Origin: Myxococcus xanthus
GTDB lineage: Bacteria > Myxococcota > Myxococcia > Myxococcales > Myxococcaceae
DNA length: 64,000 nt
Reading direction: 5' to 3'
Assembly: GCF_006402735.1 (NCBI RefSeq)
Contig: NZ_CP017174.1
Span: forward strand, 2,545,001-2,609,000
The notes beneath the pieces were generated by a model that worked only from the letters and a program-made list of their open reading frames with translations, searched no databases and had not been told where the DNA came from. Of this stretch, positions 50,080 to 54,685 are shown piece by piece. The position numbers were made by a program, and so were the translations under genes. Each line of letters begins with the position of its first letter. Position 1 is the first letter of the stretch.

Positions 50080-52179
50080 TCAGTGCGCGAGCGCGTGCAG
50101 CAGGTTGACGTAGCTGTCGGACCAGACGCGCCGGTCCTTCAGCTCGGGTGGCGTGTCCACCGGCTGGAAGGGCAGCTCCTGGGTGAGGCGGGCCACGACG
50201 TCGCTGTTGGCGCTCATGGCGAACCAGACGCTGGGTGAGCGGCCCGACGCCAGCTCCTCGGCGGTGAGGCGCTCCGTCTGATTCACGAGCCCTTGGATCC
50301 GCAGCTCCGTGCTCAAGCGGGTCAGCACGGGGACCAGGTCGAAGAGCCGGCTGGAGACGTGGAACAGCAGGAGCCCCTCCGGCGCGAGCTTCCGGAGATA
50401 GAGGCTCAGCGCCTCCCGGGTCAGCAGGTGCGTGGGGACGAAGTCGCTGGAGAACGCATCGAGGACGATGACGTCGTACCCGTCGTCCTCGGCTTCCTCC
50501 ATGCGAAGGCGCGCGTCCCCCGCGAGGACACGGAGCTCCGCCTGGCTGGAGCCGAGCATGCTGAAGTGCTGGCGCGCGAGCCGCTCCACCTCCGGGTCCA
50601 GTTCGTAGAAGTCCCAACGCTCGCCGGGGCGGCCATACGCGGCGAGGCTGCCGATGCCGAGCCCCACGACGGCCACGCGCTCACGCACAATCCGTTCCGA
50701 GGCCAGCACCCGGCCCACCGCGGAGCCGCGGTGGTAGTAGGAGAGGGGCTCTCCTCGCTCGTCCGGGTGGAGGTTCTCCACGCCGTGGACGGTGCTTCCG
50801 TGCTGGAACAGCCTCAGGCCCTCCGCGTCCTTGACCGTGTAGAGGCCGTAGAAGGTGCGCGAGCCTTCGATGCGCCCGCGCGCGAGCATCCACCCGGAGA
50901 GCACCAGGACCGCGACGACGAACAGGGCGGCTCCGCTCGATACGTAAGGCGCCAGCTTCGGGACGGGCAGCCCCTGGCCCCGGCGCATCATGTCCCGCGC
51001 CGCCAGTCCTCCCAGCAGGAGCAGGCCGGTGATGCCGTGGTCCAGGTACGGGAGCGCCAGCGAGCCCAGCGTCAGGGGAACGACCAGGGCCAGCAGCAAC
51101 GTGCCCACCAGACCGCCCAGCGAGACGTGCAGATAGAACGAACCCAGCAGGCGCGGGTCCGACGGGCGGCACCACACGAGGTTGCCATGCATCAGCAGGC
51201 AGCCCACCCAAAGCACCGCGCTGTGCAGCACCAGGGACGGGAGCGACGTCTGCGCGCGTGCCAGCGCGAAGAGCGCCGCGCCCGCCGCGACGGCGAGGCT
51301 TCCCAGCGCGAGCCGGTTCAATCCGGTGGGCGTGGGGGGCCGCTTCGAGAAGCAGACGATGAGCGTGAGCAGGTACAGCGAGAGGGGGAGGATCCACAGC
51401 AGCGGGATGGAGGCATCCAGCGTGAGGACGTTGGTGACCGCGAGCAGCAGCGCATTGGCGCTCGCGGACAGCAGCAGCCAGGTGATGCGTGAGGCGCGCG
51501 GCGCGCGGGGCACCGGCTCGGTCCGGGCCGCTGGCTCGGACGTCGTGCTCCCACCGGCAAGCGCCGGCCGCACGCGTTGGATGCAGAGCAGCGCGAAGAC
51601 GACGAACGCGCCGTAGCCCGCGTACCAGACAGCCAACTGCTCCTGGAGGTCGAGCGACGGCTCCACCAGGAAGGGGAAGGTGAGCAGCGCCGTGAGTGCG
51701 CCCGCGTTGGACGTCCCGTAGAGGAAGAACGGGTCACCCCGGGAGGGATGCTCCGTGCGGGTGAACCAGCCCTGGGCGACGACGCTCGTCGTCGAAAGGG
51801 CGAGGAACGGCAGCCCCAGCGACAGCGTCAGCGTGAGCAGGATGGCCGCCACGGGATGCAATTCGAAGAGGTGCAGCCGGAACGGGAAGACGACGACCGC
51901 CAGCAGCACGAAGCCCAGGTGGGCCCAGCGGTAGCGGCCCTGGTGCGCGGCCACCGCGACGCGGCTCGAGTAGAAGTAACCGAGCATCAGCACCGCCTGG
52001 TAGAACACCAGGCACGTCGTCCAGATGGCCGCGCTGCTTCCGTACGAGGGCAGCAGCAGCCGCGCGAGGATGAGCTCCACCTGGAAGAGCAGGAAGGAGC
52101 CGAGGAAGACCCAGAGGTGGAACAGCGTCCCTGTGAAGGCGTGGGTCGAGGGCTTCGGGGCGGGAAGGTCGGTCGTCAT
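50080..52179 (-). CDS. Membrane-fused spermidine-synthase-like protein
   Basis: A 699-residue protein. The N-terminal 420 residues hold about 10-12 membrane helices (FLLFQVELILARLLLPSYG, AAILLTLTLSLGLPFLALS, ITWLLLSASANALLLAV). The C-terminal 270 residues form an aminopropyltransferase/methyltransferase-like Rossmann domain with VAVVGLGIGSLAAYG, ELDPEVERLA and DVIVLDAFSSDFVPTHLLTREAL. The motif after Y is DVIVLDAF, not the usual DVII.D of true spermidine synthases, and polyamine substrate residues are not evident, so synthase activity is uncertain. This fused architecture is common in soil bacteria but uncharacterised. Confidence 0.88.
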   Translation of the reverse strand: MTTDLPAPKPSTHAFTGTLFHLWVFLGSFLLFQVELILARLLLPSYGSSAAIWTTCLVFYQAVLMLGYFYSSRVAVAAHQGRYRWAHLGFVLLAVVVFPFRLHLFELHPVAAILLTLTLSLGLPFLALSTTSVVAQGWFTRTEHPSRGDPFFLYGTSNAGALTALLTFPFLVEPSLDLQEQLAVWYAGYGAFVVFALLCIQRVRPALAGGSTTSEPAARTEPVPRAPRASRITWLLLSASANALLLAVTNVLTLDASIPLLWILPLSLYLLTLIVCFSKRPPTPTGLNRLALGSLAVAAGAALFALARAQTSLPSLVLHSAVLWVGCLLMHGNLVWCRPSDPRLLGSFYLHVSLGGLVGTLLLALVVPLTLGSLALPYLDHGITGLLLLGGLAARDMMRRGQGLPVPKLAPYVSSGAALFVVAVLVLSGWMLARGRIEGSRTFYGLYTVKDAEGLRLFQHGSTVHGVENLHPDERGEPLSYYHRGSAVGRVLASERIVRERVAVVGLGIGSLAAYGRPGERWDFYELDPEVERLARQHFSMLGSSQAELRVLAGDARLRMEEAEDDGYDVIVLDAFSSDFVPTHLLTREALSLYLRKLAPEGLLLFHVSSRLFDLVPVLTRLSTELRIQGLVNQTERLTAEELASGRSPSVWFAMSANSDVVARLTQELPFQPVDTPPELKDRRVWSDSYVNLLHALAH

Positions 52180-52327
52180 CCTGGGAGCAACTCGCGAAGG
52201 CCCATACGCAGCGTGTGTGTGTGGCCGTGTGGGCGGAGCATCGCTCCAGGCGGCCCGAAAAAAAACGCAGGGGTGGCCTCAAGGTTTTCGGCGCCGTGCG
52301 TTTTGAATTTCGAAGTGGGGATGGGGA

Positions 52328-52434
52328 GGAAGCAAGCCCGGGGGGGCTGTTGCTTCCAGAGGGGGAGGGCGCGCCGGAGTCGGGCCGCGCAGTCATTGGG
52401 AGCACGTCGAGGGGGCGTGCTCCCAATGTTTTTT
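52328..52434 (+). ncRNA. Candidate small RNA ending in intrinsic terminator
   Basis: A plus-strand element starting no later than a hairpin with stem GGAAGCAA (52328-52335)/TTGCTTCC (52350-52357), whose loop contains a run of seven G. It ends at a canonical terminator (52394-52434). No open frame with coding bias spans it, and both flanking genes are on the minus strand, so the terminator must serve an unannotated plus-strand transcript. The 5' end is unknown; the given start is only the first structured base. A 3' UTR of a distant transcript is ruled out by the opposite-strand gene before it, though antisense transcription remains possible. Confidence 0.5.
52394..52434 (+). terminator. Intrinsic terminator 1 of a tandem pair
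   Basis: A perfect 13-bp stem CATTGGGAGCACG (52394-52406) and CGTGCTCCCAATG (52416-52428), a 9-nt purine-rich loop, then TTTTTT (52429-52434). This is the best intrinsic terminator in the window on the plus strand, yet no plus-strand gene ends here. Confidence 0.9.
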
Positions 52435-52463
52435 CTGGAGCTCTCGTCTGAGTGGCTCACGCG

Positions 52464-52505
52464 GCGGGGAGTGCGTCGGGGGGCGCGCTCCCCGCTGTGT
52501 TTTTT
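52464..52505 (+). terminator. Intrinsic terminator 2 of a tandem pair
   Basis: A 12-bp stem GCGGGGAGTGCG (52464-52475) and CGCGCTCCCCGC (52484-52495) with one T-G wobble, a G-rich loop TCGGGGGG, then TGTG and six T ending at 52505. It shares layout and much sequence with terminator 1 (GTCG and G-run in the loop, TGTTTTTTC after the stem), so the two probably arose by duplication with compensating stem changes. Confidence 0.85.
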
Positions 52506-52560
52506 CAGGGGACTGCTTCGGCCGGGCCCGGTTTCCCGGGCCTCGGCTGTGCCCACCGGA

Positions 52561-53061
52561 CTACTCGGCGTTGGACGAGGGCATGACCTTGATGGGCTGC
52601 CCGTCGTCGCCCGTCACCGTCGTACCTTCGGTCTTCTGCTGCGCCGCCGTGGGCGTACCCACCGCGAAGCTGAACACCCTGGACAGGTGCGTGCCCCGGA
52701 AATCACCCGTGACGGTGACGACGAGGTGAGACTGCCCTTCACCTGGAGTGAAGCTCACGTCGAACTCGGACACGGCATCCTGGGTGAAGTTGCCACCCGA
52801 CACGGGGGTGGTGGCGCTCTTCACTTCCAGGCCGTCCACGCCGGAGAGGCTGACCTTGACGTCGGTCGCCGGCGCATCGAAGCGCAGGGAGACGCGGGCC
52901 TGGTTCTCACCCAGCTTCGCGTCCACCTTCACCGGCGCGCCGACCTTCGTGGTGTCCGAGCTGTCGCTGGGCGTGGGGTTCGACTTCGACGGGGAGGTGC
53001 AGGCCATCTGCGCCGTGAGCGCGAGGAGGCTGGACAGGGCTGCGATTGCCTTGAGGTTCAT
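52561..53061 (-). CDS. Small lipoprotein of unknown function
   Basis: A 166-residue protein from the ATG at 53061 (GGAG 6 nt upstream). The signal MNLKAIAALSSLLALTAQMAC has a lipobox-like end at Cys 21, followed by a Ser/Thr/Pro linker. The body (about 45-140) is a single beta-sandwich-like domain: ARVSLRFDAPATDVKVSLSGVDGLEV and SHLVVTVTGDFRGTHLSRVFSFAVG. It starts 13 bp after the metalloprotease stop, so the two form an operon. It may be an accessory or inhibitor of that protease (inference). Confidence 0.75.
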   Translation of the reverse strand: MNLKAIAALSSLLALTAQMACTSPSKSNPTPSDSSDTTKVGAPVKVDAKLGENQARVSLRFDAPATDVKVSLSGVDGLEVKSATTPVSGGNFTQDAVSEFDVSFTPGEGQSHLVVTVTGDFRGTHLSRVFSFAVGTPTAAQQKTEGTTVTGDDGQPIKVMPSSNAE

Positions 53062-53074
53062 GTGCGCTCCGGAC

Positions 53075-54685
53075 TCACTGGCTGGTGATGGAGAGGGTGG
53101 GGAAGGGACGGTAGTTGCCGGCCGTCTCATTGAAGCCGTACACGACGACGACGTACCGCGCGTCCGCCTGGGTCGGGATGCTGACCGTCTCCGTACCGGT
53201 GTAGCCGATGTCGGACTCCGCCAGGCTCCGGCCCTGCCCGTAGACTTCGATGCCGACGTCCTCCGTCGCGTGGTTCGCGCTGATGGTCATGTTCCGGCCC
53301 GTGCCGGTGAAGACGTAGTACTGGTTCTGCTCGCGCTTGTTGTAGTCGCGCCCGCCCACCAGCGGCACTTCGGTGGTGTACGGGATGCCCGGCACGTTGG
53401 TGTAGATGGCGCGCAACTGCGTGTCCCCATCACCGAAGTCCGAGCTGATGGACCCGATGTTGTAGTGGGCCAGCAGCAGGTACACGTCCGCGGTGCTGAC
53501 GCCGGGCTGGGCGATGAATCCGTTGATGAACGAGCCGACGGTGGTCAGCGCGGGCGTCGACTTCTGCGGGCCCACGAGCACGTCGTAGAAGATGCCCAGG
53601 TTGTACGACACCATGTCGTACGATTCGTTGGTGCCGGAGTCGAACAAGTCATAGAGCAGCCGGAAGACGCTCATCTCGGAGAAGGCGCCCTTCTTCGGGT
53701 CGTCGGGGCGGGCCGTGGGCTCGCTCTCCGCGTCGAAGCCGAAGGCGACCAGCGTCGAGGCGTCCCAGTATGTGTCGGCGTAGATGGGCTCCGGCAGCAA
53801 GATGCTGGCGAGCGCGTTGCCGTAGCCCTCGCCGAAGGCGAGGCGCGGGTCCAGGATGTCACCGCTGGAGTGCGGACCGCCCGGGCTGTCCGCTCGCGAC
53901 AGGTTGGCCTCGAAGTAGTGCCCCCACTCGTGGACGATGACGTGGGCGTCGAACTCGTCGGTGTCCACGCCGTCCCGGCCGAGCACGTAGATTTCGTTCT
54001 CCGTGAAGGAGAAGTGCGACGTGCCGATGCGGCCCTGCGGCTTGCTGCCCGGCTGGGGCATGTTGTTCGGGCTCCAGTTCACCTTCAGCAGCGGGAAGTT
54101 GACCGGTCGCACGTCCATGAAAGCCCGCGACGCGGTGTACATGCTGTCGAGGATGGCGAAGGGCGCCGCGGTGCGCCGGCTGGCCGTGTAGTTGGTGCCC
54201 GCCCAGCCGTGGCTCGCGTGCAAGTCCTTGGTCGTCACCGTCGCGGTGATGTTGTCACCCACCGCCCAGATGGCGTTGTTGTCGGTGTTGTCCTCAATCT
54301 GGATTTCCGGCTCGGTCGACTTGGCGAGCGCGACCACCGACAGCGCCCCGCTGCCGGAAGGGGTGTACGTGAGCGTGTAGCGCCCCTGCTGGTCCGTCGT
54401 TCCATCGACGAGCACCCGCGTGCCCTGCCGCACCTGGACCACGGCGTTGCGCACGGGCCGCTTGGAGGACTGGGCGAAGTCCAGGGTCCCCCGCCGCGTG
54501 GAGGGCGAGTAGACGGCCGGGACGAAGTCGTACGTCACCGTGCCGCTCAGGGTGACGGGCTCTCCGGTGCCGCCGCCTCCATCACCGTCGTCATCACCGG
54601 GACACGCAGTTGTCAGCACCAGGGTGAATGCGAGCGCCAGCACCTTGCGGGTGAGGTCTCGGGTCGGCTTGCGAGTCACGTCCAT
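53075..54685 (-). CDS. Lipoprotein zinc metalloprotease-like protein (HExxH)
   Basis: A 536-residue protein from the ATG at 54685. The lipoprotein signal ends LVLTTAC, followed by an Asp/Gly-rich spacer. Residues 45-140 look like a carboxypeptidase-regulatory-like beta-sandwich (GTVTYDFVP, VQVRQGTRVLVDGTTDQQGRYTLTY). The central part contains VIVHEWGHYFE, a textbook HExxH zinc site, and downstream FGEGYGNALAS that could supply a third ligand glutamate. A C-terminal beta domain (TISANHATEDVGIEVYG, ARYVVVVYGF) resembles a pre-peptidase domain. Probably an envelope or secreted protease. It is the first gene of a pair with the small lipoprotein. Confidence 0.83.
   Translation of the reverse strand: MDVTRKPTRDLTRKVLALAFTLVLTTACPGDDDGDGGGGTGEPVTLSGTVTYDFVPAVYSPSTRRGTLDFAQSSKRPVRNAVVQVRQGTRVLVDGTTDQQGRYTLTYTPSGSGALSVVALAKSTEPEIQIEDNTDNNAIWAVGDNITATVTTKDLHASHGWAGTNYTASRRTAAPFAILDSMYTASRAFMDVRPVNFPLLKVNWSPNNMPQPGSKPQGRIGTSHFSFTENEIYVLGRDGVDTDEFDAHVIVHEWGHYFEANLSRADSPGGPHSSGDILDPRLAFGEGYGNALASILLPEPIYADTYWDASTLVAFGFDAESEPTARPDDPKKGAFSEMSVFRLLYDLFDSGTNESYDMVSYNLGIFYDVLVGPQKSTPALTTVGSFINGFIAQPGVSTADVYLLLAHYNIGSISSDFGDGDTQLRAIYTNVPGIPYTTEVPLVGGRDYNKREQNQYYVFTGTGRNMTISANHATEDVGIEVYGQGRSLAESDIGYTGTETVSIPTQADARYVVVVYGFNETAGNYRPFPTLSITSQ

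Follow-up and report, generated by a model that had tools for sequence, protein, structure and literature searches.

Why should a gap between two minus-strand genes hold two strong terminator hairpins on the plus strand, together with a hairpin that bears a run of seven G residues? A sequence-only reading of the window, the 64-kb stretch of M. xanthus DNA analyzed here, had taken this gap for a candidate small-RNA locus. Our analysis indicates that it is a conserved, unannotated gene of fruiting-body-forming soil bacteria, predicted to encode a small RNA. Dozens of ECF sigma factors are found in myxobacteria; of regulatory sRNAs, the Myxococcus papers that we searched treat mainly one, Pxr. 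The RNA described here is tied by its promoter sequence to a system of ECF sigma factor, anti-sigma factor and CHAT-TPR protein, and is thus a predicted distant output of that system.

Layout and conservation of the structured unit

The tandem plus-strand terminators, T1 and T2, and the two minus-strand ORFs that flank them were confirmed (Table 1), and both ORFs are conserved in relatives. The T1 hairpin (52394-52428) has 15 pairs, including G-U pairs, and a 5-nt loop, and the T2 hairpin (52459-52500) has 19 pairs and a 4-nt loop; each is followed by TTTTTT. They are the two longest among 17 terminator-like sites in 15 kb, compared with 5.3 ± 2.2 sites in shuffled sequences. The minimum-energy fold of 52314-52434 reached -61.9 kcal/mol (z = -4.05) and that of 52435-52507 reached -49.9 kcal/mol (z = -6.73), and in neither case was the energy equaled by any of 200 shuffles. 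The hairpin with a seven-G loop, as it had been described, exists as a hairpin but not with that loop: the G run (52340-52346) is partly paired in the minimum-energy fold, three G residues with CCC, leaving GGGG as the loop.

Table 1. Features of the predicted RNA locus and its neighbors (window positions)
Feature	Position	Strand	Basis or remark
Left neighbor, divergent, 699-aa membrane protein	50080-52179	-	ORF list; immediate neighbor of the RNA in the window genome and L002-L005 only
A8 tract	52258-52265	+	Upstream of the promoter motif; sequence, and relatives, in which an A-rich stretch recurs here
ECF-type promoter motif, CTCAAGG-N14-CGTTTT	52278-52304	+	Top matrix site in the window; exact pattern match
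Putative transcription start region	52310-52316	+	Position of the motif; homology with distant relatives starts nearby
Hairpin A, GGAAGCAA-GCCC-GGGG-GGGC-..-TTGCTTCC, G-rich apex	52328-52357	+	Fold; 2 pairs changed on both sides, 14 genomes
G-rich single-stranded linker	52358-52368	+	Unpaired in the minimum-energy fold of 52314-52434
Hairpin B, small, variable	52369-52390	+	Fold; weakly supported
T1, terminator hairpin and T6, with invariant loop TCGAGGGGG at 52407-52415	52394-52434	+	Terminator search; covariation; 42 of 96 genomes
Small hairpin between the terminators, GAGCTCTCG...GAGTGGCTC	52438-52458	+	Fold; 1 pair changed on both sides
T2, second terminator hairpin and T6, duplicate of T1	52459-52505	+	Terminator search; match to the T1 model; paired changes
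Right neighbor, 189-aa putative lipoprotein	52561-53130	-	Adjoins the RNA in most g1 genomes; absent there in the other two genera

Of 96 genomes in the family, 42 have the T1 core pattern, each in one perfect copy. These comprise 25 of 27 genomes of genus g1, both genomes of g18 and 15 of 16 of g26, with none among 51 genomes of 23 other genera; one genome (G113) has an additional site with 3 mismatches. By their named records, the three genera are Myxococcus, Corallococcus and Citreicoccus. A covariance model built from 40 loci recovered these 42 genomes and gave two weak hits besides (E values of 0.003 and 0.006). A scan of 84,980 species genomes gave 19 T1-bearing contigs, 18 of which carry the names Myxococcus, Pyxidicoccus, Corallococcus, Citreicoccus or Myxococcaceae; among them is a record of M. 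xanthus strain AM003 (L076). The remaining one (L062, BNCN01000014.1) has the RNA and is labeled Comamonas sp. KCTC 72670, a label that looks wrong.

The stems are conserved as paired structures in these relatives. The 40 aligned T1 loci, a set from which duplicates had already been dropped, gave 17 distinct rows, among which 5 of the 13 pairs of the 13-bp stem model had changed on both sides; 98.6% of the stem cells were paired, compared with 29 to 59% in slid controls. The 9-nt loop (also given as UCGAGGGGG) is invariant across the aligned loci. The T1 covariance model also matched T2 in the window genome (46.1 bits, E = 5e-8), and wherever both terminators are present, in 14 genomes, T2 was its second hit (42 to 49 bits). 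In T2 a G-C pair became A-U and stayed paired in 5 of these 14 genomes, and a C-G pair became U-A in 1 of 14. The proposals that the two terminators are related in sequence and that duplication was accompanied by compensatory change are both supported. Across the clade formed by these 14 genomes, neither the stem nor the loop of T1 varies, indicating that the T1 covariation stems from the comparison between clades. These alignments show a conserved unit, predicted to be a structured RNA, that is limited to three genera of the Myxococcaceae, with T2 duplicated in one clade.

A duplicated copy of the sRNA had also been considered. The duplication was found for the terminator, but not for a transcription unit: only one promoter-like motif lies upstream of the RNA in the window genome, and the T2 stem starts 24 bases past the T-run of T1, which points to a single RNA gene whose second terminator is a back-up or a duplicate, and not to two sRNAs transcribed separately. 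We conclude that 52310-52505 on the plus strand very probably encodes, in a single copy, a small non-coding RNA whose length is most likely about 120 nt to T1 and about 195 nt with read-through to T2. In more distant relatives (L009-L014), homology with the window starts at 52316-52322.

An ECF-type promoter motif in front of the RNA

The motif CTCAAGG-N14-CGTNTT recurs upstream of the RNA in relatives. A close form with a spacer of exactly 14 bases was present at 36 of 37 distinct RNA loci, in one copy at 21, two copies at 12 and three copies at 3 of them; the 37th locus (L004) has TTCAAGG instead. When seven genomes were searched with up to one mismatch, the RNA motif gave 27 sites and its reversed control 1. 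As read, several of the 27 sites fall within coding regions, and others lie upstream of an ECF sigma factor gene or of a CHAT-TPR gene.

The ECF gene (domains Sigma70_r2 and Sigma70_r4_2) is located at G000:C1:1151640 in the window genome (G000). It is followed by a gene whose product is a zinc-finger (zf-HC2) TPR protein; a single hydrophobic stretch indicates that this anti-sigma factor is probably membrane anchored. A motif resembling CTCAAGG-N14-CGTYTT precedes the ECF gene at all 30 loci read, out of 45 close orthologs, with a spacer of 14 bases in 28 and of 15 bases in 2. The training set for a matrix comprised 19 of the 30 promoters, among them 13 distinct sequences, without the 11 that failed a strict expression and without any RNA locus. 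Across both strands of the 64-kb window this matrix ranked position 52277 (+) first, with a score of 15.0 versus 9.5 for the next site.

In G110, a g26 genome of 10.1 Mb, the strict pattern CTCAAGRN14CGTYTT has exactly two sites, the ECF promoter and the RNA promoter, and in the window genome three, the ECF promoter, the RNA promoter and one at 6334644. G014 has one site, the ECF promoter, and its RNA promoter fits with one mismatch; G058 has three, the ECF promoter and two further sites, and its RNA motifs likewise fit with one mismatch. When one mismatch is allowed, the strict pattern yields mostly background, 111 hits versus 62 for the reversed control in four genomes. A CHAT-TPR gene located 4.4 kb from the ECF gene has the same motif with one mismatch. 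The two copies of the motif, one for the CHAT-TPR gene and one for the ECF operon, lie 4.4 kb apart at L111:3153-3179 and L111:7574-7600.

At the sequence level, these results show that the conserved body of the putative RNA is immediately preceded by a promoter motif belonging to one particular ECF sigma factor. It is highly likely that this sigma factor drives the RNA, and the ECF operon, the CHAT-TPR gene and the RNA likely form a three-promoter regulon.

The ECF gene and the RNA occur in the same three genera. Each of the 45 g1, g18 and g26 genomes has a close ECF ortholog (78 to 100% identity, E ≤ 6e-95), and none of the 51 genomes of other genera does (best E = 4e-52, identities up to 52%). 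The RNA is absent from three of the 45 ECF-bearing genomes, two of which (G015 and G109) are fragmented assemblies of about 1010 and 530 contigs. In the third (G011; L142, G011:C423) the ECF ortholog and the lipoprotein gene are present and the RNA is not beside the lipoprotein gene, so that it has apparently been lost or relocated. The shared presence of ECF gene and RNA is one clade-level coincidence rather than many independent events.

Some relatives (L009, L011-L014, L019-L020 and L033-L046) have longer RNA regions, mostly with two or three ECF-like motif copies of spacer 14. Some of the copies overlap a short palindrome (e.g., CAGACGC-AGA-GCGTCTG) and have G-rich hairpins after them. The longer regions represent either tandem promoters or a repeated RNA module.

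Mode of action and alternative explanations

The start signal of the RNA matches the motif by which a stress-response ECF sigma factor switches on its own gene, indicating that the RNA is probably regulatory and produced on activation of that stress system. Our preferred reading, to which we give a probability of about 0.7, is that of an ECF-dependent, Hfq-independent small RNA that follows the logic of RybB and MicA and acts in trans. The zinc-finger anti-sigma factor, probably anchored in the membrane, would release the ECF sigma factor, and the free sigma factor would transcribe its own operon, the neighboring CHAT-TPR gene and the RNA. The transcript, ending at T1 or, on read-through, at T2, would then act in trans without Hfq, its exposed G-rich loops and linker pairing with C-rich stretches in target mRNAs. 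RNAs of the RybB and MicA type work with Hfq and pair with the mRNAs of envelope proteins. Hfq (PF17209) was found in none of the four genomes searched, and the same family was detected in 5 of 14 controls. The conserved exposed parts of the RNA are G rich, which makes pairing with C-rich mRNA stretches the simplest mode; we give base pairing even odds.

A search for complements of the T1 loop with GCCCCCTCGAC found 5 sites in the window genome and 15 in G110; in both genomes one of these sites is the RNA itself. The reversed control gave 34 and 28 sites, respectively, but it differs in codon make-up and nothing was concluded from the deficit. No conserved target was found by this search in the two genomes, with nothing consistent in G110. 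At one site in the window genome (L197, G000:C1:7467060), the loop complement covers codons 5 to 8 of an ORF starting MTLQAPSTPRHSFRFG; this ORF is a weak target candidate, and the site was not seen in G110.

Repeated hairpins with G-rich loops also occur in protein sponges such as CsrB and RsmZ, which sequester CsrA. The RNA resembles them in having several such hairpins per molecule, and more in the longer regions of other clades, so that sequestration of a protein could be its function. This is unlikely, given that CsrA (PF02599) was found in none of the four genomes tested, though detected in 3 of 14 controls, and that no candidate protein is known. A sponge for CsrA itself was rejected, since all four genomes lack it. 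A related and equally doubtful possibility is that, in bacteria without CsrA and Hfq, the ECF sigma factor releases an RNA decoy that titrates C-rich sRNAs, for example Pxr, or a protein that binds G loops. Nested RNAs that end at the same 3' position, with repeated hairpins exposing G runs, would then arise from one to three ECF-like promoters in tandem. Genera differ in how many promoter motifs and hairpins they have, and the T1 loop is fixed. If true, this would mean that envelope stress is coupled to development. As for Pxr, the opening-plus-duplex energy of its pairing with the RNA was -10.9 kcal/mol; among 40 dinucleotide shuffles the median was -8.8 kcal/mol, and 7 did as well. A role as a Pxr sponge is thus unsupported, the pairing being no better than chance.

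The neighboring genes bear on two further explanations. Upstream of the RNA, on the same strand, L006-L014 have nmt, and L016-L018 and L021-L028 have rsgA. The hairpins might accordingly be a mere tandem terminator of such a gene, with no RNA of its own, orphaned in the window by insertion of the membrane gene. We regard this as improbable. A terminator needs neither an invariant 9-nt loop nor an ECF promoter motif in front, and the unit persists in the clade of the window with no plus-strand gene immediately upstream. It persists also in g18 and g26, where no rsgA, nmt, lipoprotein or membrane gene was found near the RNA within the stretches read, and where the gene to its left was read from sequence as lying on the minus strand. 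In the window genome, the membrane gene lies between nmt and the RNA, and it is missing there in L006-L014; it was either recently inserted or lost in the other relatives. Its product gave no Pfam hit, and it includes a stretch that we take to be spermidine-synthase-like.

Even less probable is a leader or antisense RNA acting in cis on one of its two neighbors, the membrane gene (divergent) or the lipoprotein gene (convergent). In most g1 genomes the lipoprotein gene stays next to the RNA, and the end of T2 is about 55 bases from its stop codon. However, neither gene is beside the RNA in g18 and g26, the membrane gene is not beside it in L006-L028, and the RNA and the coding sequences do not overlap in the window. 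Since the neighbors differ between clades, the RNA appears to be an independent unit that is not tied to one host gene.

A short protein-coding gene starting with the ATG at 52321, whose frame is open in the window, is refuted by the alignment, since relatives at 96 to 98% identity have single-base indels inside the frame (G7/G6, T6/T7 and an extra G) and the ATG is missing in L009-L014. The small-RNA locus put forward by the sequence-only reading is therefore upheld as a prediction, with stems kept by compensation, an invariant T1 loop, independence from its neighbors and no coding frame; its transcription and regulatory role are predicted from the sequence.

Comparison with known RNAs

No Rfam 15 family matched at the gathering cutoff in the window or in the loci of five relatives; an FsrA-like hit on the minus strand, at 18.2 bits versus a cutoff of 80, is at chance level. 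The RNA is not Pxr. The region of the published Pxr Northern probe has a single exact match in the same genome, at G000:C1:1327061, 1.27 Mb away, and the neighbors here are the membrane protein and lipoprotein genes. In the parts of the sources consulted, pxr is placed between nla19 and a predicted NADH dehydrogenase gene (PMC5568312), and Pxr is described as a developmental sRNA of Myxococcus with a sigma-54 promoter and a C-rich loop (PMC5568312, PMC5684412, PMC11928866). Both are myxobacterial multi-hairpin sRNAs with a terminator, predicted in the present case, but they differ in genomic location, promoter type and loop composition.

The literature searched, which yielded Pxr work and reviews, gave no prior description of a link between this RNA and an ECF sigma factor. 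The non-coding RNAs of M. xanthus DK1622 were surveyed by Whitworth and Swain in 2020, according to the parts consulted of two papers that cite the survey (PMC8538405, PMC7694542), and that survey may already list a transcript from this locus.

The closest parallels are the sigma-E-dependent sRNAs, which, in the portions of the sources consulted, include MicA, RybB and VrrA of Enterobacteria and Vibrio and FoxJ of Fusobacterium (PMC1804206, PMC2628432, PMC11005410). Like them, the RNA is predicted to be a stand-alone non-coding RNA with an intrinsic terminator and, in front, a promoter of the type found at autoregulated ECF sigma genes. It differs from them in its sequence, in the ECF sigma factor concerned, in the lack of Hfq in the four genomes tested and, in some relatives, in having up to three tandem motif copies. 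The RNA would thus offer an Hfq-free case of sigma-controlled sRNA regulation.
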